From positions 1,736,001 through 1,800,000 of the forward strand of contig NZ_JACCBV010000001.1 in NCBI RefSeq assembly GCF_013409785.1: 64,000 nt of DNA, given 5' to 3'. This stretch comes from Microbacterium immunditiarum (GTDB lineage: Bacteria > Actinomycetota > Actinomycetes > Actinomycetales > Microbacteriaceae). The notes beneath the pieces were generated by a model. That model was not told the DNA's origin, did not search any database, and saw nothing but the letters and a program-made list of their open reading frames with translations. Shown here one piece after another: positions 30,281-48,504 of the stretch (position 1 is its first letter; every line of letters begins with the position of its first letter). Position numbers and translations under genes: made by a program.

Positions 30281-30559
30281 CTCGACCTCCGATCGTGCCC
30301 GGCTCGACGGTCAGTATTGGGCCAGTGTCGGACACTGGTCGGACCCCGTCAACGCGGCCGATGAGAGATGTGGATAGATGACGGAGGATGTCCTCAACTG
30401 GCGATGGGTTGGAGGGGCGCCTCCCTCCGACGCCGAGAGTGTAGCGATCGGTCGCGGCTCCGTTCTCGCCGCTCACTCCTTGCAGACTCCGCGCTGGCGC
30501 GCGTCGCTTAGCAGCCGTTCGACGACGAGGACTGCGCCGCGCCCGATCGCTAGAGGGGC

Positions 30560-31947: not shown

Positions 31948-32080
31948 GTGATCAACCTATCGATCAGATCGAGTTGGCGGCGAGGATCTTCCGCGAGCTG
32001 GGGCCACTACGACGAGTCCGAACGCCACCCGCCTGCTCCCCTTGCGGAGCCCGCGCCCGCGTCCTGATACGGTCGCAATC

Positions 32081-32401: not shown

Positions 32402-34139
32402 GATCGAGCGCCTGAGCTTCACGTCAGGCGCGATTTCGGACTGGGTGGCTGGCGACGAGCGCCGAAGGAACTGGCCTGTCGTCTACGTGCTTGATGGTGC
32501 CGACTCGGCTGGTGCCGGGGCCGTGTACGTCGGTGAGACGGTCAACGCCGCTGCGCGCATGCGCCAGCATCTCGCGAACCCCGCCAAGAACGCATTCCGG
32601 CGCGTGCGCGTTGTCATCGACGACACCTTCAACAAGTCGGCGTGCCTCGATCTGGAGTCTCACCTGATCCGCTGGCTCGCCGGCGACGGACAGTTCACGG
32701 TGATGAATGGCAACGAGGGCATCATCGACGCCCGGTACTACGAGCGCGACCTTTACCGGGAGAGCTTCCGTGACATCTTCGACAAGTTGCGATCAGAGGG
32801 AATCTTCCAGCGCAGCATCCCTGAGATCGAGAACAGCGACCTCTTCAAACTGTCGCCGTTCAAAGTGCTCACGCCGGAACAGGCGATCGCGGTCGAGGAC
32901 ATTGTGGAGGGACTCCTTGCCGACCTCGGCAACGGAGCGTCGTCTACGAGTGTGATCGAAGGACAGCCTGGGACGGGCAAGACCATCATCGCGATCTTCC
33001 TGATGAAGCTCCTCGCAGACATCCGCGACCACGATGATGCAGACGAAGTCGAACCAGACTCGATGTTCGCCGACTTCTTCGTGCCCGGCAATCGCGAACT
33101 ACTCGCGGGCCTTCGGATCGGTTTCGTCGTACCTCAGCAGTCCTTGCGCGAATCCATCAAGCGTGTCTTTAAGAAGACACCAAAGCTCACGGAGGCACAA
33201 ATCCTGACGCCCTTCGACGTGGGGGCATCAGATCAGCCATGGGACCTGCTGATTGTCGACGAGACTCATCGCCTGAACCAGCGTGCGAACCAGTCGTCGG
33301 GCGTCAACAACAGGCGATTCATCACAATCAACGAGAAGCTCTTTGGCGTTGACGACCCATCGAAGACGCAGCTGGACTGGATCCGCGCTCAGAGCCGGCA
33401 CCAGATCTATTTGCTCGACGTCGAGCAGACCATACGACCGGCTGACCTGCCTCAGAGTGTCCTCCGCTCGCTCGTGGACCAGGCAAGGTCGACGCATCGC
33501 CGGTATCCGCTGTCTACCCAGATGCGCGTGCGTGCAGGCGCCGACTATGTGCAATTCGTTCGGGACGTGCTGCGGGGCGAGTCCAACGCGACCGAGCGCC
33601 CCGACTTCGGTGACTACGACCTGAGATTCTTCGACAACCTCGCGGCGATGCGACGCACAATTTTCAAGCGCAACGACGAGCATGGCCTCGCCCGCCTCGT
33701 CGCCGGCTACGCATGGGAGTGGAAGAGCAGTCGCGATAAGGAAGCGTTTGATATCGAGCTGGATGGCGTGCGCCTTCGCTGGAACAGCCAAGCCAAAGAC
33801 TGGATCAATAGTCCGGCATCCATTCACGAGGTCGGGTCTATCCATACCGTCCAGGGTTACGACCTCAACTACGCAGGCGTCATCATCGGCAACGACCTCC
33901 GTTACGACCCCCACTCCCAACGGCTCTACATCGACCGCGCCTCGTATCGGGATGCGAAGGGCAAAGAGAACAACAAGCAACGCGGGATCGCCTACTCCGA
34001 CGACGACCTATTGGAGTTCATCCGCAACATCTACGGCGTTCTCCTGACGAGAGGCATGCTCGGCACGTATGTATACGTGTGTGATCCGCCGCTGCGCGAG
34101 TACATTGCGCGCCAGATTGGGCGTCGCGTCACCGGCTAG
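32388..34139 (+). CDS. GIY-YIG nuclease domain fused to DUF2075 P-loop helicase-like domain
   Basis: A 583-residue fusion. Residues 20-70 are a GIY-YIG-like nuclease module (PVVYVLDG, AVYVGETVNAAARMRQH). From about residue 165 a DUF2075 superfamily 1-like ATPase follows, with Walker A GQPGTGKT near 189, Walker B LLIVDETHR near 286 and a C-terminal helicase lobe (SIHTVQGYDLNYAGVIIGND). This architecture occurs in defence islands, but its mechanism is not settled. The start overlaps the mazG-like gene by 14 bases. Confidence 0.85.
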   Translation: MTPFEIERLSFTSGAISDWVAGDERRRNWPVVYVLDGADSAGAGAVYVGETVNAAARMRQHLANPAKNAFRRVRVVIDDTFNKSACLDLESHLIRWLAGDGQFTVMNGNEGIIDARYYERDLYRESFRDIFDKLRSEGIFQRSIPEIENSDLFKLSPFKVLTPEQAIAVEDIVEGLLADLGNGASSTSVIEGQPGTGKTIIAIFLMKLLADIRDHDDADEVEPDSMFADFFVPGNRELLAGLRIGFVVPQQSLRESIKRVFKKTPKLTEAQILTPFDVGASDQPWDLLIVDETHRLNQRANQSSGVNNRRFITINEKLFGVDDPSKTQLDWIRAQSRHQIYLLDVEQTIRPADLPQSVLRSLVDQARSTHRRYPLSTQMRVRAGADYVQFVRDVLRGESNATERPDFGDYDLRFFDNLAAMRRTIFKRNDEHGLARLVAGYAWEWKSSRDKEAFDIELDGVRLRWNSQAKDWINSPASIHEVGSIHTVQGYDLNYAGVIIGNDLRYDPHSQRLYIDRASYRDAKGKENNKQRGIAYSDDDLLEFIRNIYGVLLTRGMLGTYVYVCDPPLREYIARQIGRRVTG

Positions 34140-34423
34140 TCCGGTAGTGAAGGCCTCAGGGGCGCACGGCGTCTTCTCTCTGGCGCATGGACCCCCCGCG
34201 AGGCGCAAGCCAATCGCCGCGCCGTTGGTGGATTGCGGTGCGAATCGGGTGAGCTGCTTCACCAGCGTTCGTGGCCGGAGCACGAGGGCGCCTTCGGCCC
34301 TAGACCAGCCGCCAACGAGAGGTCAGCCTGCTGCAAGGAAGCCGAGCGAAGACCGCGAGAGCGAACGCGTTCGCGCGAGAACAATTACCAGTCAGCGGTC
34401 GCACCGCACGATTCGCAATTTCC

Positions 34424-35761
34424 CTAGCTGCGGGGTTCCGATACCGGCCAGAGCCCGACCGACTGCCGGTACTCGGTGGCTTCGCCGACCTCGTTGAACT
34501 CGAGGATGTTGCCCACCTTTTCGATGAGGACGTCGCGCACCTCGGCTGGTGTGGCGAAGAAGAACTCCTTTCGCGCGTTGGCGCGGTTGAGGGCGCGGTC
34601 GGCGAAGTGATGGTGCAGCTCGGATTCGAGGGTGACGGCGTCTTCGGAGAAGAAGAGCGCGTGGGTATCGAATCTGAAAGGCACAGAAGCCCCACCGAGT
34701 TCGACGATGCGATCGCGCGGCTCGAGGCGTCGCGTCAGGCCGATCTTCACCACGTTGGCGCCGAAGGCCCCCTCGTTCGAGATCACGTAGACGTAACCAG
34801 CGCGAATGTTCGCTGCCCGGAAGTCGTTCTGCGCGATCGCATCATCGACCGCCGCGAGCCGTGCGCGCAAGGCGTCGTCGACCTGCCCCTGCTGCTCCAA
34901 GACTGACAGCGTGTTGAGGAGGTGCGCGCGTTCCTTATCGAGGCGCGCTCGCTCCTCGGCGAGCTCTCGCTCGACCTTCTTCTCTTCACGGAGGCGCGCT
35001 CGCTCCTCGCGTTCCGCCTCGCGCTCTTCCTGCTTCTTCATCAACCAGTCGGCGGTGAGCTCAATCTCCTCCACGCGCAGGTCGTGAAACTCGTCGCTGA
35101 TCTTCATCTCCATCAGTGCGCCCAGCTTGGCGATCGCCGTCCGCGACGCCTCAAGTCGACGCTTGGCGGTCACGACATTCCCGACCCGAAGCGTTCGAAT
35201 CGAATTGTCAGCCTCAGCGTTGTAAGCCCGGAGCATGAGCTTCGCCAGGTCGTCGGTCATGCGGCGACCCTGGGCGAGGGAGTTGTTGAAGGTGAACAGC
35301 TCGGACTTCACGATCGCTCGACCCGCCTTTACAGCGTCGGCAATGCGGGACTCGAGCGAAGCAAGCGCTTCTTGGTAAGCCGCTGCCGTTTCAAGCGGAT
35401 GGTGGTATCGGTAGATCCCCACGTCCTGCAGCACTCGCGCGTCACTCAAGTCCACGTAGTCGCCCGCACGCGCCTCCGCCAGCTGTGCGCGAAGTGAGGC
35501 GTTCTCGGCTTCAAGGAACGCTAGCCGGCCCATCTCCGAACCCGGGGCCGGTGCCGCGGCTGTCGGATCCTCATTCGTCGGAAGATCAGCCGCCGGCGCA
35601 ACTGCCTCTGCAGCGGGCGGCTCGTCTGTCAGCCACAACTGCCATCCGGCGGGGGGTTCCGGCCACGACGGGTCTGGAGTCCAGCCTGCTGGCGGGACCC
35701 AACCCGCCGGTGGCTTTGGCCATCCCGGAGGCGGGTTGAACCTGACGCTCGAATCAGTCAT
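34424..35761 (-). CDS. DUF4041 and T5orf172 (GIY-YIG) domain protein
   Basis: A 445-residue protein. The N-terminus has repeated PPxGW units (PPGWPKPPAGWVPPAGW). A DUF4041 region follows (residues 110-240), then a charged coiled coil with many EER/AEE repeats (residues 240-300), and a C-terminal T5orf172/GIY-YIG nuclease domain (AGYVYVISNEGAFG, KIGLTRRLEPRDRI). DUF4041-T5orf172 proteins are common in phages and islands; a nuclease role is likely. Its ATG overlaps the stop of the upstream coiled-coil gene (ATGA). Confidence 0.85.
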   Translation of the reverse strand: MTDSSVRFNPPPGWPKPPAGWVPPAGWTPDPSWPEPPAGWQLWLTDEPPAAEAVAPAADLPTNEDPTAAAPAPGSEMGRLAFLEAENASLRAQLAEARAGDYVDLSDARVLQDVGIYRYHHPLETAAAYQEALASLESRIADAVKAGRAIVKSELFTFNNSLAQGRRMTDDLAKLMLRAYNAEADNSIRTLRVGNVVTAKRRLEASRTAIAKLGALMEMKISDEFHDLRVEEIELTADWLMKKQEEREAEREERARLREEKKVERELAEERARLDKERAHLLNTLSVLEQQGQVDDALRARLAAVDDAIAQNDFRAANIRAGYVYVISNEGAFGANVVKIGLTRRLEPRDRIVELGGASVPFRFDTHALFFSEDAVTLESELHHHFADRALNRANARKEFFFATPAEVRDVLIEKVGNILEFNEVGEATEYRQSVGLWPVSEPRS

Positions 35762-37008
35762 CGCGCGCGCCGTACCCCACCGGCGACGGCGGGCACCAGA
35801 CCGTACGGATTTTTCGAGACCGAGGCGCCAAGGTGCTCGAGAGTCGCGGAAGGGACGACTGCGGACAAGTCGAGCGCGTCGAACTCCTCGCGGCGCGCTG
35901 CGACTGCGACGAAGGGCACGTAGGTCGGTCGGCCGGTCGCCGGACTGATGGTCTCGGTTCCCAGCTCCAGTGAAATGCTCGCGATCAGTCCGCGACGGTC
36001 GGCCTCGAACACCTCGTGAAGGGACCGCAACGCGATGTTGTGAACGACGCGCAGATAGCGGTCCTTTGTATCTTTTTGTGTTGCAGCGACAGGAGTGATT
36101 TCGTCCGTCGCTTTGGTGTAGCGGTACGACTTGATCGCGGGAATCGCGTCCGGCCCTGGAATCAGAACCCGCAGGCTGAGTTCGGCGGTCGTCGGTTCAA
36201 AGGTCGCCGAGTGCGATACCGGAAACCATTCAGGGTAGATCGAGTTGGCGAGCACGATTCCGACGTACTCCTGAAGGGCGTCAACCGTGCCGTACGCCAG
36301 GCCCGAAATCAGCTGGTCGAGGGACTCATTCTGCTCGGCGACATCCTTCTCCCGCGCGGCTGACTCCGCCTCGTATTGCGCGAGCGCCTCGGCGAGGGCG
36401 ATCTGTCGCGCGCTCTCTGCCGCCTGGTGGGCGGCCTCTTGCGCCGCGCGGCGTGCGGGAAGTTCGTCAGTCGCGGCCTTCCACGCCCAGTAGTCGGTCG
36501 CATACTGCTGCTCGACCGCCGCTAGAGCATCCGCAGCCTTTTGCTTGCGCCCGAGCAGTCCCTTCACCGGCTCCGGTTCGCGTTTGACCGGCAGCGGAGG
36601 GTCGGGGATCGCCGCCGGCGCGGGAATCGGGACGCGCAAGTCCTCGCGCGGGAAGGGCGGGTGCGTGACTACGGCGCGCAGCGACTCCAAGTCCACGAAG
36701 TCGTCCACATCGAGCGTTGCCGAGAGAATTTCGTCGAGTTCGACGAGGCGCCTGTTCAGCTCCGCGGTTAGCTCTTCAGCCTCGGCTTGGCGAGCCTCCG
36801 CGTGCGCTTGAGCTGCCTCGCGCTCCAGACGTTTGCGATCCTGCTCCGACGCACGGGCGGCAGCTGCCGCCGCGCGCTCTGCGGCGCGTTGTGCAGCTTC
36901 GGCCCGCTTGACCGCCTGCGACTGCTGACGTAGCGCGGCCTGCTGTCTCTGATCGGCAAGCTTTGCCTGGTGCTGAAGCTCCGCAAAAAACCCACGACGA
37001 CGTGCCAT
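35758..37008 (-). CDS. Coiled-coil protein of a restriction-associated actinobacterial family
   Basis: A 416-residue protein starting MARRRGFFAELQHQAKLADQ. It has a long Ala/Arg/Glu coiled coil (residues 10-100), the block TLDVDDFVDLESLRAVVTHP, a second coil (residues 190-250), and a C-terminal domain with VALQEYVGIVLANS-like and YRYTKATDEITPV segments ending VSKNPYGLV. Relatives are often annotated as restriction-system proteins, some fused to Mrr nuclease domains; no nuclease domain is seen here. It is co-translated with the DUF4041 gene. The ATG at 37008 was chosen by the conserved start. Confidence 0.7.
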   Translation of the reverse strand: MARRRGFFAELQHQAKLADQRQQAALRQQSQAVKRAEAAQRAAERAAAAAARASEQDRKRLEREAAQAHAEARQAEAEELTAELNRRLVELDEILSATLDVDDFVDLESLRAVVTHPPFPREDLRVPIPAPAAIPDPPLPVKREPEPVKGLLGRKQKAADALAAVEQQYATDYWAWKAATDELPARRAAQEAAHQAAESARQIALAEALAQYEAESAAREKDVAEQNESLDQLISGLAYGTVDALQEYVGIVLANSIYPEWFPVSHSATFEPTTAELSLRVLIPGPDAIPAIKSYRYTKATDEITPVAATQKDTKDRYLRVVHNIALRSLHEVFEADRRGLIASISLELGTETISPATGRPTYVPFVAVAARREEFDALDLSAVVPSATLEHLGASVSKNPYGLVPAVAGGVRRAR

Positions 37009-37182
37009 ACGTGCCCCCAAATCGACCAACTCCCGAAGTCTATTGGGGAAGCACGTCGTCCTTCTCACCCAGCCTGCTTCTGTCTCCCGCTGACGGCGCT
37101 CCGTAGCGAGATAGCGACCGGTTCACTTCGCGCAGTCCATGTCGATGAGCACCACGCACTCGCGTGAAGCCATACTGGGCGA

Positions 37183-37803
37183 ATGGACGCCCGCTTCGAT
37201 TCATTCCCATTCCAAGACGGACAGTTCGCCCCGCTCGGCGCGAAGGCCTACGCGCCCGTCGTTCCTACGCGAGCGATGGGGTTCACCGACGACGAAGAAT
37301 GGGAGGTAGTCGGGGAATCCCGCTACCTCGACGGTATTCGCCGCACCAAGGAGCTGATGGATGAAGATGAAGAGGGCGGGACGCTATTCGCCCAGCTAAT
37401 CGCGGAGCCCTTGAACGAGTTCGACCGCCACGCGGTGCGCGTGGACCTCGTGTGGGACTACCAACGTGAGACCTGCGGCTATCTACCTCGCGAGCAGGCA
37501 TACAGGCTCCAGCCCCTGGTGATTCAGGAGGCCGACGACGGCCTGATCGTACTTCGAGAGGCCTCCCTTTACGGCGGAACTCTCGATCGGCCAAACATCG
37601 GCGTCTGGCTCTCACCTCCAGCATTGTCCGACCAGACGCAGGACTACTCCGACTTTCGTGCCGAGCGCGCCGCCAACGAGCGCGACGAATCCGCGGCCAC
37701 TCAACGCGCGAACGCGGTCGCGCGGGAACACCAAGAAGCGATAGTCGCGGAGCAGGCTGCCGCATCGGAGAAGCGCTCGCTATGGAAGCGACTCGGATTC
37801 TGA
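37183..37803 (+). CDS. HIRAN-domain-like protein
   Basis: A 206-residue protein. Residues 35-120 match a HIRAN domain: EVVGESRYLDGI, FAQLIAEPLNEFDRHAVRVD and CGYLPREQAYRLQ. HIRAN domains bind DNA ends or stalled-fork structures and occur alone in bacterial defence or repair loci. A charged helical tail (AANERDESAATQRANAVARE) ends in the basic KRSLWKRLGF. It is divergent from the coiled-coil/DUF4041 operon. The ATG lies near a CATACT -10-like hexamer. Confidence 0.75.
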   Translation: MDARFDSFPFQDGQFAPLGAKAYAPVVPTRAMGFTDDEEWEVVGESRYLDGIRRTKELMDEDEEGGTLFAQLIAEPLNEFDRHAVRVDLVWDYQRETCGYLPREQAYRLQPLVIQEADDGLIVLREASLYGGTLDRPNIGVWLSPPALSDQTQDYSDFRAERAANERDESAATQRANAVAREHQEAIVAEQAAASEKRSLWKRLGF

Positions 37804-38117
37804 GTCCTGCGCCCTAATCGCCTGCCGTCGTTGCAGTCCGCCACTGGTCTCCGTTCGCGCGGCGGGCGGAGCAGGACTCGTGTGTGTAGGCAGAGCATCA
37901 GACGGTCCGAATTGCGAATTTGGGATCTCCGAGCAGGGCGGACAGGCAGCACCGTCGAAGCGACGAGCGATCCCTTTCCCAGAACAGGCCGCAGGACGAG
38001 GCGAGTGTGAGTCCTGACTGGAGGGCCGCTCAGGCCCCGAGAGCTGTCTCAGCGCACGCAACTGCGCGGTCCTTGAGCCAAGCCTCCAAGGAGGGGATAG
38101 GCGCAAGTGCCGGGGGA
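37804..38117. other. Intergenic stretch, no feature seen
   Basis: 314 bases between the HIRAN gene and the convergent membrane-anchored gene. Short open frames cross it on both strands, but none has a ribosome-binding site or recognisable product. No hairpin with a U-tract was found. Confidence 0.6.
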
Positions 38118-38891
38118 TCAATCTTCTTCGTAAGGACCCCAGCGCTCGTGGCGATACTTGAGACCTTCAAGAGACACGATCTGTGACTTCATCGCCCATG
38201 CCTGTCGGGAGAGGTCGAGAAGCCTGCGGCGCGAGCGGTCCTTCAGTTTCTTATCCCACAGCGCCTCCTCTTCCCGCCGATAGCCCTGCACCGCGCTGAT
38301 AAACGCCTCGCGGGATGTCTCCATCTCTGAGCGAACGCGGCAATATGCCCGCACGGCATCCTCAAGTTCCTTCGCGCGGGCCGGATCCGGCTCGGGTGGC
38401 CGGGCGTTCTCCCACGTCACACCGGGATCGGCGAAGTAGCGATGTATCGTCTTGTTGAACAGCGGCGGACGAACGGAGGCCGGCATAAGCCTTTCGACCC
38501 TCTCTGCCTGTATGCGTAGCCGCTCCCATGCGTCACAACACAGTCGGAGCGACCAGAAGCCGAGCGCCGACTCCGTCGTGCCGACACTTGGCGCGCTGGT
38601 CATCCTCCGGCGCGCGGACTTGAACGCTGTGCCTGCTGGAAGTAATGAAGACGCGTCATAGAACGGCGGGGCGAAGAGGGGCGCGAACAACTCGTCCACT
38701 GCTTCCTGTTCGAGGCGGTTCTGCGTGGCAGATTCCCGCCGTCGTTCCAGAGAGCGCTCCGCTCCGAGCACAACCAGGCCGACGATGACACCGGTGAGAA
38801 CCGCGACAATGATGTCTGGGACCATCTGCGACCAGTCCGGGGGCCAGAAGGCCGCACTCGCTGTTGGCGTCGGTCTGAGCGAGGGCGTCAC
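38118..38891 (-). CDS. Membrane-anchored protein of unknown function
   Basis: A 257-residue protein with one membrane helix near the N-terminus (MVPDIIVAVLTGVIVGLVVL, about residues 23-42) and a large soluble helical part rich in Arg and Glu (AERSLERRRESATQNRLEQE and later RREEEALWDKKLKDRSRRR). No family was recognised. It resembles small islands' membrane-tethered proteins of unknown role. No partner overlaps it. Confidence 0.6.
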   Translation of the reverse strand: MTPSLRPTPTASAAFWPPDWSQMVPDIIVAVLTGVIVGLVVLGAERSLERRRESATQNRLEQEAVDELFAPLFAPPFYDASSLLPAGTAFKSARRRMTSAPSVGTTESALGFWSLRLCCDAWERLRIQAERVERLMPASVRPPLFNKTIHRYFADPGVTWENARPPEPDPARAKELEDAVRAYCRVRSEMETSREAFISAVQGYRREEEALWDKKLKDRSRRRLLDLSRQAWAMKSQIVSLEGLKYRHERWGPYEED

Positions 38892-39183
38892 GATCTTTGT
38901 CTACCGCATCGGCGGCCGGCAGCGTGAGACCAGACTCGGTCGGCCTAATCGAGGGTTACTCCCGCCCAGTCACCGCGGCGCGAAGGCCCGTCGCGAGCAT
39001 GGCCACAGCAGCGGAGAGCGCCTGCGTCGCGTTGAGTGGGGTAGCGTAGCGCTCTCGAGCGGGCATCCTCATCGCCCTTGCGTGGGTGAGATATGGGGCC
39101 GTGGCATACGCCGAGAGAGTCGAACCCGTCGATAGAGTCGGGCGCGTGCATATTGATCGGCTCGACTACGGTGCGGCGCCGCC

Positions 39184-39657
39184 ATGACCTGGGAAACCGT
39201 AATGACGAAGGACACATGCATTGCGTTGTCGGCAGTGTTCCCTCTCATCCTCGTGACAATGGCGATCGAGCACCGTAGGGCCCTTCGGTACGTGCAGCGA
39301 CGCGAAGGCGTCTTTCAGTGGATCGTGGAGAAGAGCACGATCGGCGCGGTATGCGGCCTCGTCATGACCGTTATCGGCGTGCAGACCGACGGCCTGGCCC
39401 TGCCCTTCACTGTTCTTGCGTGGTTCCTCTTCGGCCTCGGCATCCTTGGGCTTACGCTCGTTCTGGTCGCGATCGTGGAGCAGGACCGCTCCGACCGTGA
39501 AGAAGACGTTCGGCGGCGAGAGGATGAGCGCCGAGCTGCTCTCAAAGCGACCCGGCGGAGGCCGTGGTGGAGGCGCGCGGTCAACCTGGCGACAGGCGAT
39601 CGCCGGCGGGACCCCGCTGCGCGCGGGGCTTCTAGCGAGGTCTGGCATGCAGACTGA
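39184..39657 (+). CDS. Small membrane protein
   Basis: A 157-residue protein with three predicted helices (TCIALSAVFPLILVTMAIE, STIGAVCGLVMTVIGVQ and FTVLAWFLFGLGILGLTLVL) and a long basic, Arg-rich cytoplasmic tail (EEDVRRREDERRAALKATRR). No family was recognised. Its end overlaps the next gene by 11 bases, so the two form a unit. Confidence 0.6.
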   Translation: MTWETVMTKDTCIALSAVFPLILVTMAIEHRRALRYVQRREGVFQWIVEKSTIGAVCGLVMTVIGVQTDGLALPFTVLAWFLFGLGILGLTLVLVAIVEQDRSDREEDVRRREDERRAALKATRRRPWWRRAVNLATGDRRRDPAARGASSEVWHAD

Positions 39658-40147
39658 TCCCTTCGCGCTCCCCGCGTTCATCCTCGCGATAATCAGTCTC
39701 GTCGTCGCGACAATCGGTGCGCTGACTGGCGTCGTGGCCCTTGTCTGGCAGATCATCACTCGCACGCGCGGTGCGCATCGCGTCACGGTGTCTGTCGCGA
39801 ACTCCGTCCTCATCGGTGACGGTATGCCCGATGGAGTCTTCATCTCGGTTGAGGCGATCAACAAGGGTGCGTCGGCGGTGCGCATTATCAACTGGGGCTT
39901 CCAGTTGCCGAGCGGTGAAGGCATTACCGTCTATGTGCCCGTGCCGCTCTCTACGACCCTGCCTCACATGCTCGAACCCGGCACGAACGCGACCTTCTTC
40001 GTGCCCGCGGCCAATCTCGGCGGGGCGATCCGGACGCGCGACGGGCTCACGCCGCGCGATCTGCGAGCCGTTGTCGGCCTCGCGACAGGCGAGAAGATTT
40101 TCGCGAAGCTCGGCTCGCTGAAGCTTGCCGAGGAGTTTTGGCGCTAG
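39647..40147 (+). CDS. Single-pass membrane protein with beta-rich soluble domain
   Basis: A 166-residue protein. An N-terminal membrane helix (ALPAFILAIISLVVATIGAL, then VVALVWQII) is followed by a soluble domain rich in beta strands (RVTVSVANSVLIGD, GVFISVEAINKGASAVRIIN). The pattern resembles small Ig-like domain proteins found in mobile elements, but no function is known. It overlaps the preceding membrane-protein gene. Confidence 0.6.
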   Translation: MQTDPFALPAFILAIISLVVATIGALTGVVALVWQIITRTRGAHRVTVSVANSVLIGDGMPDGVFISVEAINKGASAVRIINWGFQLPSGEGITVYVPVPLSTTLPHMLEPGTNATFFVPAANLGGAIRTRDGLTPRDLRAVVGLATGEKIFAKLGSLKLAEEFWR

Positions 40148-40457
40148 GGCGCGACGTCGCAGGACGCCCTCCGTCGTGGCGTCTTGAGCGATAAGGATGA
40201 CCGTCGCCCAACCGCCAGTCGTTGGAGCGCACGCTCCCGACGGCACTCTTCGCATTCCTGTATGTCGCGGGCGAGATGCGACCTGACTTCATGTCGGCGA
40301 CCCTTCAAATGCATGCAGACGCCGAGGTCACTCGAGGAGAACCGCAATGCACGCAGGCACCCGGGGTGAGCGGCACCTTTAGAAGCACTCACCTACACAT
40401 ACCTGCACCACTGAAAAATCCCTGGATAGCGGGTAAAACCTAGCCTAGTCTGGCGCC
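40148..40457. other. Non-coding stretch upstream of the relaxase (possible oriT region)
   Basis: 310 bases without a convincing gene. A short inverted repeat GTGAG/CTCAC (40366-40392) is followed by an AT-richer patch and by TAGTCT (40446-40451), a -10-like hexamer six bases before the relaxase ATG. Position directly upstream of a relaxase suggests an origin of transfer, but no nic consensus is recognised. Confidence 0.35.
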
Positions 40458-43148
40458 ATGCGCGGAGGTCTTGAGCGCTGGAAGCGAGGTGTCGAATCGA
40501 GAGGGGTTCGACATGCGATCGGCTACGCGCTCGAGGGCATCTGCGACGCTCACCTGCAGCACTCCCGCGGCGTTGACGCGCTCGAAGCGTACGGTGGCGC
40601 GTCCGATTCGACCGTCTCACGATTCATCGTGGCGAACGGCATCCTCACCTCCGACGAGCTCACCGCCGGCGGCCTTCGTGTCTGGCTCACCGGGCACGAC
40701 CCGGTCACGGGGGAGGAGCGCGGCCGCCAGCGGTTGAGCCCCGACGCTGACCTGTTGCTCGATGGCACGCTTAACCACCCGAAGTCGTACAGCATTGCCG
40801 CGCTGCTCCATCCCGAACTCGCAGCCGAGTTCGAAGCCCTCCAAGACCGGTTGCGGGACCGCATCCTGTGCATCTGGCAAACCGAGCTCAACGCACGCCG
40901 CGGACACGGCGGACTCATTCGCGAGGCGATCACGCGTATCGAAGTCGTCGAGCTGCAGCACCGTCGCTCGCGAGCGCTCGACCCGCACATCCACCGGCAC
41001 CTGTGGCTGAATATCAAAGCGCTTGGTGCGGACGGCAAGTGGTCAAACCTCGATTCGCGTGTCGCGATGAAACTGCACACCGTCGTCAACGCCGAGGGCG
41101 AGCTCGCCGCCCGCACCGATCCCGCCTGGATCGACGCGCTCGCCCGGCACGGATACACACTCGACCTCAATGGGGAGATCGCCGAGCTCGCTGGCGCGGT
41201 CCGACCCGTGTCGCGCCGGTCGGCGCAAATCGAAGGCAACCGAGCGCGCCTGATCGCGGAGTGGTCGGCGGCGCACGGAGGATCTGCGCCGAGCGTGGAG
41301 GTGCTGCATCAGATCGATCGGCGCGCGTGGGCGGTGTCGCGTCCGAACAAGCCGGCCGATCTCGATGAGGCGTGGTGGGAGGCGCGCGTCCGCGACGAGA
41401 TCGCCGCGATCGATCCGAGCCTGATCGCCACGCGCGCACCCATTCCACTCGCCGCAACAGACCCGCCTGCGCTCGATCTGGATCTGCTCGCTGCACAGGC
41501 AGTCATCGACGCGGACGAACGGTCGACCTCATGCGGCGGGAGGTTCAGCATCTTCGACATCCGCGCGGGCGCAATACGCGCGCTCTCGCGCACGGGCGTC
41601 GTTGCGGAGCGCGATCGGTTCGATGGCGTGATCGCCGAGGTGACGGAGCGCGCCATGCGTTCCGTCTTCCGGCTCGTTGCGGACGATCCGCCTGCGCACG
41701 TCAAGGCGTTCATGGCAACCGAGACCGTACGCGCCAAGGTGCGTCTTGCCGGATGCTTGGACGTGCTCGCCCAACCGGGGCGCTCCCTGCTGCCGGAGGA
41801 GTTGCGCCGACTCGCACCGAACGCGCATCTGTCGACGCTGGATGCGTCGCAAGGCGTTGCCGCGTGCGCCATCGCCGGCACGGACGGGCTCGTGACGGTG
41901 ACCGGCCCCGCAGGCGCGGGCAAGACGACGATGCTGCGCGCTGCGTTCACGGCGCTCGCGTCGCAACGGAGGCGGATGCTCGTTGTTGCTCCTACGCGAA
42001 AGGCGGCATCGGTGGCGTCTCGCGAGGTCGGGGCCGCGGCATCCAGCATTCATGCCTTGCTTACGGATCATGGCTACCGATGGGGCACCGACGAGGCCGG
42101 CGCTAAGGTGTGGACCAGGCTTCGAGTGGGAGAAGTCGATGCCATCACGGGCGCCGTGTACGGCGGACCAAGCCAGTACATGTTGCGTTCTCGCGATCGG
42201 ATCGTCGTCGACGAAGCCGGCATGGTCGACCTGCGGACGGCGAACGTACTTGTCGAACTCGCGATCGAACAGGGTGTCGGGCTGGCGTTCGTGGGTGACA
42301 CGCATCAGGCGTTGCCGGTCGGACACGCGGGAGCGATGGGTTCTGCGATCCGGCACGCGAACGCTGCGATCGAACTCGACACGGTGCACCGGTTCCGCGA
42401 TCCCGACTACGCGGCGCTCACGCTGCGGCTCCGGGATGCGGGTGACCGCGAGCGTGCACTGGTGGTTGCGGGCGAGCTTGCCGAACGCGGTCTCGTCGCT
42501 CGGGTCGATCATCACGACGCGGCGCGTGGGCGGATGATCGACGCGTACTTCGAGTGGCACGAACGCGGCAAGCGGGTGACGTTGGTATCTGGCACGAATG
42601 CTGAGGCGGATGCGATCAACGACGCCATCCAGCAGCGGCGAGTCGATCAAGGCGAGCTCGACGTCCGCGTCGCCGCGTGGGGAATGGGGCAGCAGCGCAT
42701 CCTCGTCGGCGACACCGTCCAGACCCGTCGCAACGACCGGCTCACCGGAGTCGAGAATCGCGCGCAGTGGATCGTGCGCGGGATCCGTGATGAGTACCTG
42801 TCTCTTGTCTCCGTGAGCGACAGCGGCGAGGTGGCGCGCGTGTCCACCGAGTACGCGCGTGAGCACTTGCAGCTCGCCTACGCGTCCACCGTGCACGGCG
42901 TGCAGGGCGACACGGCCGATGCGTCGGTGGTCGGGCCTGATGTGGACGCCGCAGGCCTCTACGTGGGCCTGACGCGCGGTCGGCTCAGTAACGTCGCGAC
43001 CGTCGTCGCGCGGACGGATGCCGCGGCCCGCGAGTGCCTCGCCGAGTCGATGCAGCGCGGGACTCCGGAGTTGACTCTGCAGGACGCTGTGAGCGCGGCC
43101 CAGGCGGAGCTGCGACGCGCGGCGAGGAAGCGGGAGCGGCGATGGTGA
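40458..43148 (+). CDS. MobF-family relaxase-helicase (TrwC/TraI-like)
   Basis: An 896-residue conjugative relaxase. The relaxase domain contains the metal-binding His cluster in RALDPHIHRHLWLN and a candidate catalytic Tyr near residue 22. A superfamily 1 helicase follows with Walker A TGPAGAGKTT, DEAGM and VHGVQGDTADASVV. It would nick oriT and unwind the strand for transfer. The N-terminus is shorter than in many MobF proteins. Its presence without secretion genes marks the island as mobilizable. Confidence 0.88.
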   Translation: MRGGLERWKRGVESRGVRHAIGYALEGICDAHLQHSRGVDALEAYGGASDSTVSRFIVANGILTSDELTAGGLRVWLTGHDPVTGEERGRQRLSPDADLLLDGTLNHPKSYSIAALLHPELAAEFEALQDRLRDRILCIWQTELNARRGHGGLIREAITRIEVVELQHRRSRALDPHIHRHLWLNIKALGADGKWSNLDSRVAMKLHTVVNAEGELAARTDPAWIDALARHGYTLDLNGEIAELAGAVRPVSRRSAQIEGNRARLIAEWSAAHGGSAPSVEVLHQIDRRAWAVSRPNKPADLDEAWWEARVRDEIAAIDPSLIATRAPIPLAATDPPALDLDLLAAQAVIDADERSTSCGGRFSIFDIRAGAIRALSRTGVVAERDRFDGVIAEVTERAMRSVFRLVADDPPAHVKAFMATETVRAKVRLAGCLDVLAQPGRSLLPEELRRLAPNAHLSTLDASQGVAACAIAGTDGLVTVTGPAGAGKTTMLRAAFTALASQRRRMLVVAPTRKAASVASREVGAAASSIHALLTDHGYRWGTDEAGAKVWTRLRVGEVDAITGAVYGGPSQYMLRSRDRIVVDEAGMVDLRTANVLVELAIEQGVGLAFVGDTHQALPVGHAGAMGSAIRHANAAIELDTVHRFRDPDYAALTLRLRDAGDRERALVVAGELAERGLVARVDHHDAARGRMIDAYFEWHERGKRVTLVSGTNAEADAINDAIQQRRVDQGELDVRVAAWGMGQQRILVGDTVQTRRNDRLTGVENRAQWIVRGIRDEYLSLVSVSDSGEVARVSTEYAREHLQLAYASTVHGVQGDTADASVVGPDVDAAGLYVGLTRGRLSNVATVVARTDAAARECLAESMQRGTPELTLQDAVSAAQAELRRAARKRERRW

Positions 43149-43330
43149 CGGCGCCGTTGAGCAGTGCGCTAAGTTCGGGGCGCGGGATAGGGATGTAGAG
43201 GCGCTCGACGGTTGGGCGCTCAACGAGGAAGGACTCGGGCGGGCTATTCGGGCGCGACCTGCGAGGGTCCCGGCGCCGAAAATCGGATCTCATCGGTTGT
43301 TGCCACGGACGACCGGCGCTCGGGCCATTT

Positions 43331-44026
43331 CTAATCCACGATCACGACGTCGGAGTGCTGAGGCGGCGGCGGCGGGTCGGCGGCGAGCCGTGCTTGCCTG
43401 TCAGCTTCGGCCGGATCCTGGCCAAGCCCAACGTAGACGTCGACGAGCATCTGGTGCAATGCGACCACGGAACCCCAACGACGATCCCACTCGGCCACCG
43501 CATTGTGCGCCTCTAGCGACATGATGACCCAGGTGAGCGTGGTCGCGAACTCGTCAGCCAACGTGTGGTGCGGCTTATCCAAGTGCGCGATGCCCTCGAG
43601 GTGGTCTTTCGGCAGGAGCGCTCGCAATCCTCGCGCATCCCCGTCAGACACTTCGAAGTCGAGACTATGTGCAGCTCGGTTACGCAGCTGGTTTAGCCGC
43701 TCGAGCACCGGCCGGAGGTCGGCCTTGATGAAGCCGTACGCCGTGGCGATGTTGAGCTTTGTCGCGAACGGAAGTCGATCGAGTTTGATCTGACTCGGCT
43801 GCTCGGCGTGAATCTCCAGCGCGGCGTTCAGCGCGCGCTCAACCCAAAGGTGCCCCTTGATCACTGCCATGAGCAGGTTGGGGTCGGCCACGTGCGCGCG
43901 TACATCTGCGAGTCGAACCGCCATTTCGCCGAGCGTACTTGTGATCCGCCTGCAGGGTGCAACCAAGCGCTCGCATGCACACTGGTGAACGTCCGGCGGA
44001 AGCGTAGTGATCAGAGAATCGCTCAT
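43331..44026 (-). CDS. HEPN-like protein (possible RNase)
   Basis: A 231-residue all-alpha protein. The segment LERLNQLRNRAAHSLDFEV contains RNxxxH, the catalytic motif of HEPN ribonucleases, after a helix-rich DUF4145-like region (HLWVERALNAALEIHAEQ). HEPN RNases act in toxin-antitoxin, abortive infection and CRISPR systems. No antitoxin is obvious; the only close neighbour is the divergent membrane gene. The proline-rich tail PPPPPQHSDVVIVD is unusual. ATG at 44026 or 44032. Confidence 0.55.
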   Translation of the reverse strand: MSDSLITTLPPDVHQCACERLVAPCRRITSTLGEMAVRLADVRAHVADPNLLMAVIKGHLWVERALNAALEIHAEQPSQIKLDRLPFATKLNIATAYGFIKADLRPVLERLNQLRNRAAHSLDFEVSDGDARGLRALLPKDHLEGIAHLDKPHHTLADEFATTLTWVIMSLEAHNAVAEWDRRWGSVVALHQMLVDVYVGLGQDPAEADRQARLAADPPPPPQHSDVVIVD

Positions 44027-44051
44027 GCCCATGCACCGCTATGGTTCATCC

Positions 44052-44606
44052 GTGTACAAGATCTGTCGCACGCGGCCCAAGTCGACGAGGATTCGCCGCG
44101 TACAGCTGCTGAGTTCCGAGCTGGACTCGCTGCGAAACTCTGCCGTTGAGCGAACACGCTCCCTGGATGCCAAGGCTTCCTTCGTCGTCGTGGCAGCAGG
44201 CGTGTTGGCGAGCGCCGTCGGCCTCGGACTCGTTCGTTCCGAGACCTGGTACGTCGGCCTCATCCCGTTCGGATTGACCGTTTGGACCGTTGTGCAGTCC
44301 GCCGCCGCACTCTGGCCGCGGTCGATTGATCTTCCGGGAGCGCGCAAGCTAGTGGCCAAGCATGTGGATTCCGCGGATCCGCCGGAGAAGCTGGAGGACT
44401 TTCTTCTTGAGGTGAAGACGACGGAGGTCGAGAATCGAAATGCCCAGAATGAGAAGAAGGCCGCGTACACCAAGCGCGCCTTCAAGCTCCTCGTCGCTAG
44501 CCTCGTCGCCATCTTCATCGTGGTCGGGCTCAATGCAATCCTCACAAGTAACGGAGCAGCCAGTGTCGGACCAAAATCCACCCCCAGCCCCACAGCCACG
44601 CCCTGA
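44052..44606 (+). CDS. Membrane protein heading the micro-protein operon
   Basis: About 184 residues from the GTG at 44052. It has a paired N-terminal hairpin of membrane helices (LDAKASFVVVAAGVLASAVG and WYVGLIPFGLTVWTVVQSAA), a charged cytoplasmic linker and a third helix (AFKLLVASLVAIFIVVGLNA). The D-x-KAS start and helix layout recall Pycsar-type and SLATT membrane effectors, but no cyclase is nearby, so this is only a resemblance. Its 3' end overlaps the first micro-protein ORF by 44 bases. An ATG at 44007 is an alternative start. Confidence 0.6.
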   Translation: MYKICRTRPKSTRIRRVQLLSSELDSLRNSAVERTRSLDAKASFVVVAAGVLASAVGLGLVRSETWYVGLIPFGLTVWTVVQSAAALWPRSIDLPGARKLVAKHVDSADPPEKLEDFLLEVKTTEVENRNAQNEKKAAYTKRAFKLLVASLVAIFIVVGLNAILTSNGAASVGPKSTPSPTATP

Positions 44607-44697
44607 TGTGGATGACGTATTCGAGAAGGTGACGCTGACTCCTCCCGAGTCGGATGCCGACAAAATCATCCGGCTGGTTGCCGATCATGGCGAGTGA
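44563..44697 (+). CDS. Micro-protein A with RPxVxD motif
   Basis: A 44-residue ORF starting GTG at 44563, with GGAG seven bases upstream, inside the end of the membrane-protein gene in another frame. Its centre reads PRPDVDDVFEKVTL. The same core recurs in the two following ORFs. A short Pro-rich head and acidic tail flank the motif. No homologue is known. Confidence 0.55.
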   Translation: MSDQNPPPAPQPRPDVDDVFEKVTLTPPESDADKIIRLVADHGE

Positions 44698-44842
44698 CTC
44701 GGACAAGGAGCGTCCTGCCCCCGAGGCTAGACCGCGCCCCTCGGTCGATGACGTGCTCGATTCGCTCACTGCCGGTGGTGGATGGAAAGATCAGAAGACT
44801 GAGCCGGATCGCTCCAAAAACACCAGGAGACGAAGTGGGTAG
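44687..44842 (+). CDS. Micro-protein B with RPxVxD motif
   Basis: A 51-residue ORF with ATG at 44687, overlapping A by 11 bases. Its core is RPRPSVDDVLDSLTAGG, clearly related to A and C, followed by a basic tail (SKNTRRRSG). The overlap suggests translational coupling. Confidence 0.55.
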   Translation: MASDSDKERPAPEARPRPSVDDVLDSLTAGGGWKDQKTEPDRSKNTRRRSG

Positions 44843-44942
44843 ACCTAGTCAGAGCTCGCACGAATCAGAGGAGCGCCCGGACGTGAGCGACATCATGGAT
44901 ACGCTGACGCATAGCGACGATCGACCGAGCGAGAGCCGGTAA
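44835..44942 (+). CDS. Micro-protein C with RPxVxD motif
   Basis: A 35-residue ORF with GTG at 44835 and an AGGAGA ribosome-binding site four bases upstream, overlapping B by eight bases. Its core is EERPDVSDIMDTLTHSDD. It closes the four-gene overlapping unit, 116 bases before the IS element. Confidence 0.5.
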   Translation: MGRPSQSSHESEERPDVSDIMDTLTHSDDRPSESR

Positions 44943-45058
44943 GAGCCGCGACCAGCTTCCCCAGTCGGATTGCGCACCAAACGGTGCCTCCTGCGCGTCG
45001 CCCGTAGAGAAATACCTATAGCACTCCAAGCGCCTGGGCGGGCGGTCACCTCGGCGGG

Positions 45059-45085
45059 ATTGACTCGCCCCGGCATGTCCGGAGA
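45059..45085 (+). repeat. IS left inverted repeat
   Basis: 27 bases, the exact reverse complement of 46379-46405. Confidence 0.95.
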
Positions 45086-45111
45086 CAAGATTCCTTGGAA
45101 GGATCTGTCTC

Positions 45112-45435
45112 ATGGGACGTCCCAGCAAGTACCCGCGCGAGCTTCGTGAGCGCGCTGTCCGAATGGTCGCCGAGGTGCGGCCCGACTACCCGAGCGAGTA
45201 CGCGGCGATGACCGCAGTCGCGGGGATGCTCGGGATCGGCTCACCGGAGACGATCCGCACCTGGATCCGCCGGCAGCAGGTCGACGCCGGTGATCGGCCG
45301 GGCCTGACGACCGACGCGGCGGTGGAGATCAAGCGGTTGCGGCGCGAGAACGCCGAGTTGCGCCGGGCGAACGAGATATTGAAGGCGGCTTCGGCTTTCT
45401 TCGCGGCCGAGCTCGACCGGCCACACAAGCGATAG
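45112..45435 (+). CDS. IS3-family transposase OrfA
   Basis: A 107-residue DNA-binding half of the transposase: HTH segment MGRPSKYPRELRERAVRMVA, GIGSPETIRTWIRRQQ, then the leucine-zipper stretch IKRLRRENAELRRANEILKA before the stop. Programmed -1 frameshifting near 45400-45430 would give the OrfAB fusion. Confidence 0.93.
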   Translation: MGRPSKYPRELRERAVRMVAEVRPDYPSEYAAMTAVAGMLGIGSPETIRTWIRRQQVDAGDRPGLTTDAAVEIKRLRRENAELRRANEILKAASAFFAAELDRPHKR

Positions 45436-45506
45436 TCGCGTTCATCGACGAGCACCGCGACCGCGCCGATGGCGGGCTCAGATGGGGTGTCGAGTCGATC
45501 TGCGCC

Positions 45507-46568
45507 GTGCTCAGTCAGCATGGAGTGAAGATCGCCCCATCGACCTACTACGACGCTCACGGACGAGAACCCTCGGCCCGAGAGCTGTCCGACGAACGCT
45601 GGAAGCCGATCATCCTGACCACGTGGCAGAAGCAGCGGAAGGTACTGGGCGCCCGCAAGCTCTGGCTCCGGCTCCGCCGCGACGGGCACGACATCGCCCG
45701 CTGCACGGTCGAACGCCTCATGCGTGATCTGGGGATTGCCGGGGTGGTCCGCGGGAAGCGCAAGCGGCCCGTCGATGTGGACCCGCGGGAGACCAGGCCG
45801 GCTGACCTCGTCGACCGGCATTTCGCGAGGTTCCGCACGAACCAGCTCTGGGTGGCCGACTTTACCTACGTCTGGACGTGGTCCGGATGGGTCTACGTCG
45901 CATTCGTGTTCGACGCGCACTCCCGCCGCATCCTCGGCTGGCGCGCCGCCACGAGCATGACGACCCCGCTCGTGCTGGACTGCCTCGAGATGGCGCTCTG
46001 GACCCGTCGTCGTGAAGGCGTGGACGGGTTCACCGGTCTCACGCATCACACCGACGCGGGCAGCGTCTATACGTCGATTTCCTTCACGGACCGACTCGTG
46101 GACGAGGGCATCGACCCATCCGTCGGCTCCGTCGGCGATGCATACGACAACTCCCTCGCCGAGTCGCAGATCGGTCTCTACAAGTCCGAGCTCATCCACC
46201 ATGAGGGCCCATGGCGGGACGTCGATCAGGTCGAGGCCGCCACAGCGTCCTGGGTTCAGTGGTTCAACACCGAACGCACCCACGGGTCGATCGACGACCT
46301 CACACCCGTCGAGCTCGAACAACTCGACTACGCTCTCACCGAACCCCTCGAACGAGCGGGCCGACACCAGCTAAACGCTCTCCGGACATGCCGGGGCGAG
46401 TCAATGAGCCTCTGGCGATGTCGCCTGGAGAAACGAGTGGCCCACGCCGGTCACCCCCAGGGGTCGTCGTATGCTTCTGACTGTTGGACCCTCCAACCAT
46501 CCAGCAGGAAAACTCACGCAGGAGCAACATGGACGCCCCGAAGTTCACCGACGATACTTACGACCTGA
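45507..46568 (+). CDS. IS3-family transposase OrfB (DDE integrase domain)
   Basis: The catalytic half of the transposase. DDE residues are in WVADFTYVW, HHTDAGSVY and NSLAESQIGLYKSE. Homology begins upstream of 45507 (IVAFIDEHRDRADGGLRWGV in the same frame), consistent with synthesis by -1 frameshift from orfA. The frame has no stop before the right inverted repeat and continues about 160 bases beyond the IS, adding roughly 55 foreign residues and overlapping the ParB-like gene start. Confidence 0.9.
   Translation: MLSQHGVKIAPSTYYDAHGREPSARELSDERWKPIILTTWQKQRKVLGARKLWLRLRRDGHDIARCTVERLMRDLGIAGVVRGKRKRPVDVDPRETRPADLVDRHFARFRTNQLWVADFTYVWTWSGWVYVAFVFDAHSRRILGWRAATSMTTPLVLDCLEMALWTRRREGVDGFTGLTHHTDAGSVYTSISFTDRLVDEGIDPSVGSVGDAYDNSLAESQIGLYKSELIHHEGPWRDVDQVEAATASWVQWFNTERTHGSIDDLTPVELEQLDYALTEPLERAGRHQLNALRTCRGESMSLWRCRLEKRVAHAGHPQGSSYASDCWTLQPSSRKTHAGATWTPRSSPTILTT
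46379..46405 (+). repeat. IS right inverted repeat
   Basis: 27 bases, the exact reverse complement of 45059-45085. The orfB frame runs through it without a stop. Confidence 0.95.
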
Positions 46569-47623
46569 GCGAGCTCCTTTTCGACCCCAACAACTTTCGA
46601 TTCCAGGACGAGCCCAATTTCGCTCGCGCAGACGAAACCCGCTTTGCGGAAGCATCGGTTCAAGATCGCGCCTATCAGCGTCTTCGCCGAGAAGGCATCT
46701 CCGAACTGAAGAGTTCGATACTTGCTAACGGATTCCTGCAGGTGGAGCGTTTGGTAGTACGGCCACATGCACCTTCGGGAAAGTATCTCGTCGTGGAGGG
46801 CAACCGACGGCTTGCTGCATTGCGATGGATTGCTGAAGATCACGAAGCAGGAGTACCGGTGCCTCCAGAGGTACTCGACGTTCTGAGGGCCGTTCCGGTT
46901 CTGACACTCGACGCCGGCGACGCGCACGCGGCTTATCTGGCAATCATGGGAGTCAGGCATGTCGGAGGCATCAAGCAGTGGGGAGGTTACCAGCGGGCAA
47001 AGTTGGTGACGGATCTCCGCGACACCTATCAGCTGGAGACTCCTGAGGTTGCCGCGAGGCTTGGCATGACGGCTCACGAGGTGAATAGGCGGTATCGCGC
47101 TTTCAAGGCGTTGCAGCAAATGCAGCGCGACGACGAATACATGGACTCAGCGACCTCGGACAAGTACCCGCTATTCCACGAGGCTTTGTCTTTGCCGGCC
47201 GTCAGAGAGTGGCTGAAGTGGGACGACGCGAAGTCTCAGTTCGAGGACATAGAGCAAGTCCATCACTTTTATTCGCTGATCACCGAGACGGTCGATCAGG
47301 ACGAAGAGAGTGCGGAGGTGCGACTGCCAAAACTGCCGACATACGTGCAGGTGCGAGAATTGCGGACGATTTTGACGAATCCGGAAGCGAAGCAGGTCCT
47401 CCTCGATCCCGACCGCTCGTTCCCGGATGCACTTGGTATCGCGAAGGCCGAGGAAAAGTCGAAGAGCTGGCGGAGCGAGGTAGCCGAGGCAGTCAGTGTG
47501 CTCGGATCAATCGGCGCACTCGAGCTGGCGCGCCTAAGCGCCGCCGACATGGAGGTGGTCGAGAAGCTTAGGGAAACGGCAGCACAGGTGCTCTCGATGC
47601 ACGCTCGTCTCACCGCGGAGTAA
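46529..47623 (+). CDS. ParB/Srx-like N-terminal domain protein
   Basis: A 364-residue protein. The ParB-like nuclease/CTPase core is seen in SSILANGFLQVERLVVRP and YLVVEGNRRLAALRWI, followed by a helical KorB-like region (GGYQRAKLVTDLRDTYQLET, VAARLGMTAHEVNRRYRAFK). Such domains outside partition loci occur in phages and defence islands. A GGAG ribosome-binding site precedes the ATG, 123 bases after the IS. The Mrr-like gene follows two bases after its stop, so the pair is an operon. Confidence 0.88.
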   Translation: MDAPKFTDDTYDLSELLFDPNNFRFQDEPNFARADETRFAEASVQDRAYQRLRREGISELKSSILANGFLQVERLVVRPHAPSGKYLVVEGNRRLAALRWIAEDHEAGVPVPPEVLDVLRAVPVLTLDAGDAHAAYLAIMGVRHVGGIKQWGGYQRAKLVTDLRDTYQLETPEVAARLGMTAHEVNRRYRAFKALQQMQRDDEYMDSATSDKYPLFHEALSLPAVREWLKWDDAKSQFEDIEQVHHFYSLITETVDQDEESAEVRLPKLPTYVQVRELRTILTNPEAKQVLLDPDRSFPDALGIAKAEEKSKSWRSEVAEAVSVLGSIGALELARLSAADMEVVEKLRETAAQVLSMHARLTAE

Positions 47624-47625
47624 GC

Positions 47626-48504
47626 GTGGAGGGCCCAAAGGCGGCCGCGCTCGTGGTCATCCAGAGTCACGAGTTAGCGCGCCCACCAATGCTAGTACTG
47701 GAACTCCTTGAGGAGATCGGTGTTGCCGAGGGCTGGTTTCCGAATCTGACGCCAGCTGAGATAGCGGAGCGCTGCGCATCATGGCGGGTGCGCTTTGTGG
47801 CGTTTCTGACAAAAGACCTCGACGACCGCGCGAGTGACAACCGGCCAGCGCGCTATGAGTTCAATGCCTCGGATCCGTCGTACATCCAAGGATCCTGCTT
47901 TCCGGCGCCGGGCGATTCTCCAGAACTGAAGCAGGCGAAAGCTTTGCGCTCGCAACACGAGCAGTATGCCAGCGCCATCCGCGCGATCTCCTGGCGCGAA
48001 TTCGAGGGCGTGTGTCGAGGGGTCCTCTCGGTCCTTGGCTGCGATTCCCCCAAACTTACGAAGGAACGGAACGACCAAGGCGTCGACTTTTTCGGCTCGC
48101 TATCCCTCGAGGGAAAGCTCGGGAGGTCAATCGGTCTGCCCGGCGTGGACAGGAATTTCCGCACTTGGCTGGTTGGTCAGGCTAAGCAATATGAGGGAAC
48201 AGTCAGCACGACCGAACTCAGAGAACTCGCCGGATCCGTGACATTGGCGCGCGCAGGTGTTGGCTCTGATGACGGGTCAGCCCTACTCGGCCTGGACATG
48301 CGCGTTTTCGATCCCGTTTTCTTCATCTTCATCACAGCAGGGTCTCTCACGGCCGATACGCGCCTTCTCGCAAAGCGGTCGGGAATAATCGCGCTGGATG
48401 GCGAGAGCTTAGGAGCGCTTCTAGCAGACGCGGAAGTAGGGATGGTTGATCATATTTTCGACTCTGGCGCGTTCGACGCATGGGTCAAACAGCAGCTCAG
48501 GTGA
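47626..48504 (+). CDS. Mrr-like PD-(D/E)XK restriction endonuclease
   Basis: A 292-residue protein. The C-terminal part has the Mrr core: WREFEGVCRGVLSVLGCDSP, Asp in NDQGVDFFG near residue 152 and QAKQY near 184, the Q-x-K variant typical of Mrr, then TTELRELAGSV. The N-terminal 110 residues may sense the target. It is translated with the ParB-like gene, so the two probably form one restriction or anti-phage unit. GTG start. Confidence 0.82.
   Translation: MEGPKAAALVVIQSHELARPPMLVLELLEEIGVAEGWFPNLTPAEIAERCASWRVRFVAFLTKDLDDRASDNRPARYEFNASDPSYIQGSCFPAPGDSPELKQAKALRSQHEQYASAIRAISWREFEGVCRGVLSVLGCDSPKLTKERNDQGVDFFGSLSLEGKLGRSIGLPGVDRNFRTWLVGQAKQYEGTVSTTELRELAGSVTLARAGVGSDDGSALLGLDMRVFDPVFFIFITAGSLTADTRLLAKRSGIIALDGESLGALLADAEVGMVDHIFDSGAFDAWVKQQLR

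Follow-up and report, generated by a model that had tools for sequence, protein, structure and literature searches.

A gene for a small membrane protein in Microbacterium immunditiarum is followed by three overlapping micro-ORFs whose products share a motif, and the same arrangement recurs at other loci, where the short reading frames are conserved as proteins. The micro-proteins are very probably genuine gene products that work together with the membrane protein. The cassette lies in the window, by which we mean the whole 64,000-nucleotide stretch of DNA that was analyzed. Genes of fewer than 50 codons are frequently left unannotated, which could hide a conserved set of peptides partnering with an immune-like membrane protein. 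No description of such a cassette was found in the openly available literature, preprints aside.

Organization of the cassette

A sequence-only reading of this locus had described three consecutive ORFs overlapping each other and the membrane gene, and their lengths and the presence of overlaps are as it had claimed (coordinates and start codons in Table 1). The membrane gene and micro-ORF 1 share 44 nt, micro-ORFs 1 and 2 share 11 nt, and micro-ORFs 2 and 3 share 8 nt. The same reading had given most of the micro-ORFs a ribosome-binding site of their own; such a site is clear in two of the three, whereas the second lacks an evident one and perhaps relies on translational coupling. Four candidate starts are available to the membrane gene (44007, 44025, 44031 and 44052), the last of which fits best because a divergent ORF of annotated length begins at 44032. 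This divergent gene (43331-44032, minus strand) has a weak match to DUF4145 (E 0.054) and carries the motif RNRAAH, which we take to indicate a possible HEPN fold; it fell into no cluster of three or more loci when the neighborhoods of 31 loci were clustered. On the other side of the cassette, transposase genes (45112-46568; HTH_Tnp_1 and rve) begin 170 nt past the last micro-ORF, and no additional copy of the motif was seen in the stretch between them. A scan for promoters and terminators returned nothing informative.

Table 1. Positions in the window of the cassette, its motifs and the surrounding island features
Feature	Position	Strand	Remarks
tRNA-Arg	28869-28941		
19-bp attachment-like repeat	28920 and 49810		copy of the tRNA 3' end
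Tyrosine integrase	29153-30280	-	
Schlafen-group helicase	32310-34139	+	weak N-terminal GIY-YIG match
PD-Lambda-1 (E 4.4e-94) adjoining mREase_IV (E 4.7e-31)	34427-37068	-	PADLOC; the latter is type IV methyl-directed restriction enzyme-like
Membrane gene	44052..44606	+	product of ~184 aa, Pro-rich tail
Micro-protein 1	44563..44697	+	44 aa, GTG start, GGAG upstream
Motif RPDVDDVFEKVT	44599..44634	+	inside micro-protein 1
Micro-protein 2	44687..44842	+	51 aa, ATG start, no clear ribosome-binding site
Motif RPSVDDVLDSLT	44735..44770	+	inside micro-protein 2
Micro-protein 3	44835..44942	+	35 aa, GTG start, AGGAG upstream, LTHSDD subtype
Motif RPDVSDIMDTLT	44874..44909	+	inside micro-protein 3
LTHSDD, second recurrent motif	44904..44921	+	pattern [LIVFM]xH[SAG][DENQ]
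ParB-like PDC-M38A candidate (E 5.9e-58), then Mrr-type nuclease gene	46484-48504	+	

The shared motif and selection on the micro-ORFs

The pattern RP-[DS]-V-[DS]-D-[VI]-x-[DE]-x-[VL]-T, as originally proposed, fits RPDVDDVFEKVT, RPSVDDVLDSLT and RPDVSDIMDTLT, and its simpler form RPxVxDxxxxxT is present in all three window micro-proteins, which are encoded in three different reading frames. That this repetition exceeds chance, as had been argued from the letters, was borne out with an HMM trained on 25 micro-proteins from other genomes, with the three from the window and the three from Microbacterium yannicii, the closest relative, withheld. Among 1311 six-frame stretches of the window this HMM ranked the three micro-frames first to third (E 4.1e-7 for micro-protein 3, 3.3e-5 for micro-protein 1 and 1.5e-4 for micro-protein 2), the next stretch having an E of 0.53, and each of the three scored above all 2000 of its own shuffles. 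A strict DNA pattern search of the same genome found nothing.

Selection acts on the micro-ORFs at the protein level. Differences at codon positions 1, 2 and 3 number 219, 178 and 456 across 24 aligned micro-ORF pairs. The in-frame dN/dS is below 1 in all 23 of these 24 pairs for which it is defined (range 0.105-0.561, median 0.189), the pairs being non-independent in that sequences are shared between them, versus medians of 1.57 (3/24 below 1) and 1.82 (1/23 below 1) when the same DNA is read in the two shifted frames. Between the window and M. yannicii (L019) the values are 0.435, 0.194 and 0.189 for micro-proteins 1, 2 and 3, respectively. Short ORFs such as these could in principle be annotation artefacts, with non-coding overlaps and a motif arisen by chance, given their very small size and the abundance of spurious ORFs in GC-rich DNA; however, the leave-out HMM with its shuffles, the frame-controlled dN/dS values and the recurrence at other loci make this extremely improbable.

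Two groups of cassettes and their distribution

The motif and the gene order, on whose conservation elsewhere the sequence-only reading had staked its proposal, are kept in what we call group 1, comprising twelve loci and 31 micro-proteins (3, 3, 2, 2, 3, 4, 4, 3, 2, 2, 1 and 2 per locus). The consensus order of a group-1 micro-protein is a short start, a Pro-rich stretch, RPDVxxVFxxLT and a variable tail. Successive ORFs are spaced by -11, -8, -4 or +2 nt, with the exception of ORF 3 of M. yannicii, which lies 34 nt downstream when counted from its GTG. At L038 (2008-2166) a single 52-aa protein contains two copies of the motif, as if two micro-genes had been made one. Group 2 is a separate branch of the membrane-protein family, with eleven loci and 20 micro-proteins (one or two each), and those of its membrane proteins that were aligned are 25-31% identical to that of the window. 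Group-2 micro-proteins begin with GRPDY or a near variant after the start residue (MGRPDY-type). Where a group-2 locus has two such genes, they overlap by exactly 14 nt in eight of nine cases, the end of ORF1 (e.g., NGTP) being read in a second frame as the beginning of ORF2 (MGRP).

The window's membrane protein, used as query, matched at least 16 of 366 genomes of the genus, at no fewer than 17 places. Nine of the 17 places belong to group 1, all of them followed by RPxV micro-ORFs, and six to group 2; one (L017) has a different short ORF, and at L018 no recognized micro-ORF follows the membrane gene. A profile of twelve members matched 20 of 398 genomes of the family, eight of which carry group-1, group-2 or fused-motif micro-proteins (the window, L031-L036 and L038; L035 and L027 are the same place) and four another single short ORF (L043-L046), while no recognized micro-ORF was seen in the remaining eight (L037, L039-L042 and L047-L049, the last three being partial or doubtful matches). 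Across the class, matches were found in 3 of 394 genomes, all within the same family. Relatives that could be named are M. yannicii, M. enclense, M. esteraromaticum, Agromyces bauzanensis, Marisediminicola senii and a Leucobacter MAG, as well as Galbitalea soli, in which no micro-ORF was seen. A profile of five distant relatives gave matches in 22 of 349 genomes of the family, and these took in groups 1 and 2. Among the places it reached, chosen by eye, L109 has three overlapping micro-ORFs with common PPxVxxxxFxxL-like segments and L116, L118 and L123 have one short ORF each; L106-L108 show no recognized micro-ORF. Behind the distant membrane relatives at L041 and L107 lies a longer ORF, which may resemble DUF2188, instead of motif micro-proteins, and the relative at L037 is followed by a possible HEPN-like ORF (RNEMYH) in place of micro-ORFs.

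Character and subtypes of the micro-proteins

Group 1, group 2 and L038 together supply 52 micro-proteins, which range from 34 to 68 aa, contain no Cys, and consist on average of 75% disorder-promoting residues. Their highest 19-residue Kyte-Doolittle mean is 0.7, so that none of the 52 has a strongly hydrophobic stretch; this does not support pore subunits that span the membrane by hydrophobic segments, one of the roles that had been suggested for the peptides being that of pore subunits. AlphaFold2 predicts a single helix in micro-protein 3, at residues 17-27, coinciding with the motif (mean pLDDT 74). The micro-proteins are covered by no family model among those searched (Pfam, PADLOC, PHROGs and NCBIfam): nine had no match in PHROGs or NCBIfam, six from L020 and L028 had none in Pfam, and the window's three had none in PADLOC and a sole, sub-threshold match in Pfam, that of micro-protein 2 to DUF7302 (E 0.25). 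A resemblance of micro-protein 1 to Pup, suggested by GE/GQ ends, was dropped, as the other group-1 peptides lack such an end.

The tails fall into distinct subtypes that recur across loci, namely A (LTHSDD), B (MATEHGKP), C (LLASGD) and D (TENDR), mostly in the order A to D, with the A type last in the window and M. yannicii. The pattern [LIVFM]xH[SAG][DENQ], which was picked post hoc, is carried by 16 of 63 micro-proteins spread over 16 of 33 loci, compared with a mean of 0.39 and a maximum of 4 in shuffles. For all 30 group-1 micro-proteins that have a paralogue in the same locus the closest relative sits in another locus, an outcome favored by the larger cross-locus pool; L009_1, for example, scores 0.93 to its best relative elsewhere versus 0.37 within its locus. 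This pattern suggests that the subtypes are old copies which may not be interchangeable.

Association of the micro-proteins with the membrane gene

The sequence-only reading had proposed tandem paralogous peptides acting with the membrane protein, and had suggested looking for their co-occurrence in other genomes. A 31-row micro-protein profile was searched against 361 genomes of the genus, and all 24 matches below 1e-4, in nine genomes, adjoin a group-1 membrane gene among the matches listed, the 24 matched sequences being themselves part of the profile. No strong orphan micro-protein appeared among the matches listed for this group-1 profile in the 361 genomes. A further 27 genomes gave weak matches only (E 0.008-0.1), and the best match away from a membrane gene (L079, E 0.008) had the look of a spurious frame rich in Arg and Ser. 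Together with the recurrence at other loci, this adjacency upholds the proposed tie between peptides and membrane protein.

We found no third gene that recurs next to the cassette when 529 predicted proteins from 31 loci were clustered, a clustering that recovered the membrane family in 20 of the 31 loci and drew on flanks of unequal length. In the wider neighborhood, clusters of ABC-transporter-like genes (five loci), relaxase-like genes (three loci) and several other three-locus groups were formed. None of the ABC-transporter-like genes adjoins the cassette, and the two that were scanned are both ABC_tran. These genes bear on a reading of the peptides as exported or modified products, such as bacteriocin or RiPP precursors, which the membrane protein would export or confer immunity to. 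A common segment with variable ends in tandem short ORFs would resemble precursor arrays, but ABC transporters are common everywhere, the peptides are devoid of Cys, and the part common to group 1 is a helix in the middle of the protein, not an N-terminal leader; we consider this reading very unlikely.

Genomic setting

The window cassette lies in an island of ~21 kb (28869-49828) bounded by a tRNA-Arg gene, an integrase gene and a 19-bp repeat, with a GC content of 0.637 in 30000-48500 versus 0.705-0.712 outside. Defense genes are among its contents (Table 1). Ten of 92 neighbors at other loci were hand-picked, with no control set, and six of them showed TIR, Vsr, terminase, AlbA, Eco57I or HsdR-like domains; the other four had no domain match. 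The system is likely, on balance, to be defensive. A non-defense accessory module under small-protein regulation, concerned with island maintenance, conjugation control or envelope physiology, would be in keeping with the relaxase-like clusters and with the TrwC-type relaxase gene upstream of the window cassette. No relative of the membrane protein was found in viral contigs or in plasmid and phage records (the latter two at E 1e-5), and the plasmid and phage result speaks against such a module, which we regard as unlikely.

The membrane protein and known effectors

AlphaFold2 places helices at residues 10-62, 66-87, 97-105 and 111-171 of the membrane protein (mean pLDDT 78, pTM 0.56). The model suggests a topology in which a cytosolic helix runs into TM1, followed by TM2, one or more cytosolic helices leading into TM3, and a Pro-rich tail. 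At E<=0.1, one PADLOC PycTM model matches 10 of 12 members of the family (best 5.9e-5) and a second matches 8 of 12 (best 9.1e-6); the window copy matches them weakly (E 0.0016 and 0.006), the longer match covering residues 28-144 of 177. The Pfam PycTM family (PF18967) was matched by 2 of 12 members (best 0.0078), none of the 15 Pfam families to which any of the 12 gave a match at E<=0.1 was a SLATT family, and NCBIfam gave scattered weak matches. A Foldseek search with the model returned no match at E<=0.001, and a profile search of the sequences of solved structures found no relative. Foldseek/VIA rows naming BAR domains, NINJ1, PA28 and designed bundles were set aside as generic helical bundles lying below the caution level of the tool.

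The sequence-only reading had likened the helix layout to that of immune effectors while noting that no cyclase is near. The latter part stood: no class III cyclase (PF00211, E<=0.001) was matched in 15 of the 20 cassette genomes, and in the other five the matches lie on another contig or more than 200 kb from the cassette. The likeness itself was borne out in part, by the weak PycTM matches. According to PMC11224242, PycTM forms a transmembrane pore that disrupts the membrane once cyclic mono-pyrimidines have activated it. SLATT-domain pore-forming effectors were predicted by Burroughs et al. 2015, as cited in PMC7159879, which describes them as 2TM proteins responsive to a nucleotide signal. 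The membrane protein of the cassette may work in the manner of PycTM.

A proposed mechanism and its alternatives

The reading we favor is of a PycTM/SLATT-like membrane effector whose control rests with docking peptides and not with a cyclic nucleotide, the peptides serving as a lock in a defense cassette; taken as a whole it is plausible while falling short of probable. The cassette would be self-contained and probably act in anti-phage or abortive defense, with the small membrane protein as its effector and one to four co-encoded disordered micro-proteins as dedicated soluble regulators. The docking helix (RPxVxxxFxxLT) of each micro-protein is predicted to attach to the cytosolic helices of the effector, and the differing tails would give rise to the distinct subtypes. 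Bound peptides would most likely keep the effector closed, infection would remove, modify or titrate them, and the membrane protein thus freed could disrupt the membrane. If the partnership and the defense role are both real, we lean slightly towards the peptides being inhibitors.

The direction of control might also be the reverse, with the peptides acting as activators or obligatory partners that assemble or open an otherwise inert membrane protein. The adjacency and the motif-helix evidence fit such a role equally well, overlapping or closely spaced genes suit a stoichiometric complex, and regulators encoded downstream would suit co-factors as well as antitoxins, but a peptide number ranging from one to four among group-1 loci would be odd for a fixed stoichiometry. 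We regard activation as nearly as plausible as the lock, and as doubtful in itself. The tails raise a further alternative, in which the helix plugs into the effector and each tail serves as bait for a different invader protein or is the target of its cleavage or modification, giving the system several triggers. The recurrence of the subtypes across loci, the variable peptide complement of each locus and the L038 protein with its two motif copies would agree with such guarding, but the tails are short and of low complexity, and the nine micro-proteins compared with PHROGs had no match (a measure of phage likeness by family models only), leaving it rather improbable.

A bolder reading can be offered tentatively and with some doubt, namely a new kind of bacterial immune switch in which a PycTM/SLATT-type pore is gated by disordered peptides having a common docking helix and separate old tails, and so responds to several triggers. 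If this is true, control of a PycTM-like membrane effector by peptides replaces control by cyclic nucleotides. A small membrane effector gene followed by overlapping disordered micro-ORFs also offers a search pattern for more systems. The whole cassette is compact, with four genes in ~0.9 kb, making effector gating, peptide docking and subtype specificity directly testable.

Comparison with known systems

The PycTM proteins of Pycsar (PF18967; PADLOC PDLC02363 and PDLC02364) resemble the membrane protein of the cassette in being small multi-helix membrane proteins found among defense genes, and positions 20-136 of 160 of PDLC02364 align with the window protein. Unlike Pycsar, the cassette has tandem micro-proteins and no adjoining cyclase, and its similarity to PycTM is weak; by the criterion of a class III cyclase encoded near the effector, it falls outside Pycsar. 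SLATT proteins likewise combine membrane helices with cytosolic helices in a conflict-system setting, but the cassette differs from them in having no SLATT match in Pfam and no class III cyclase nearby. Toxin-antitoxin pairs whose antitoxins are small and disordered share with the cassette this kind of partner, a helix that perhaps folds on binding, and overlapping genes. In many toxin-antitoxin pairs, however, the regulator is not downstream, unlike the peptides described here, and the cassette consists of one membrane protein with one to four related partners of distinct subtypes, all located downstream of it.
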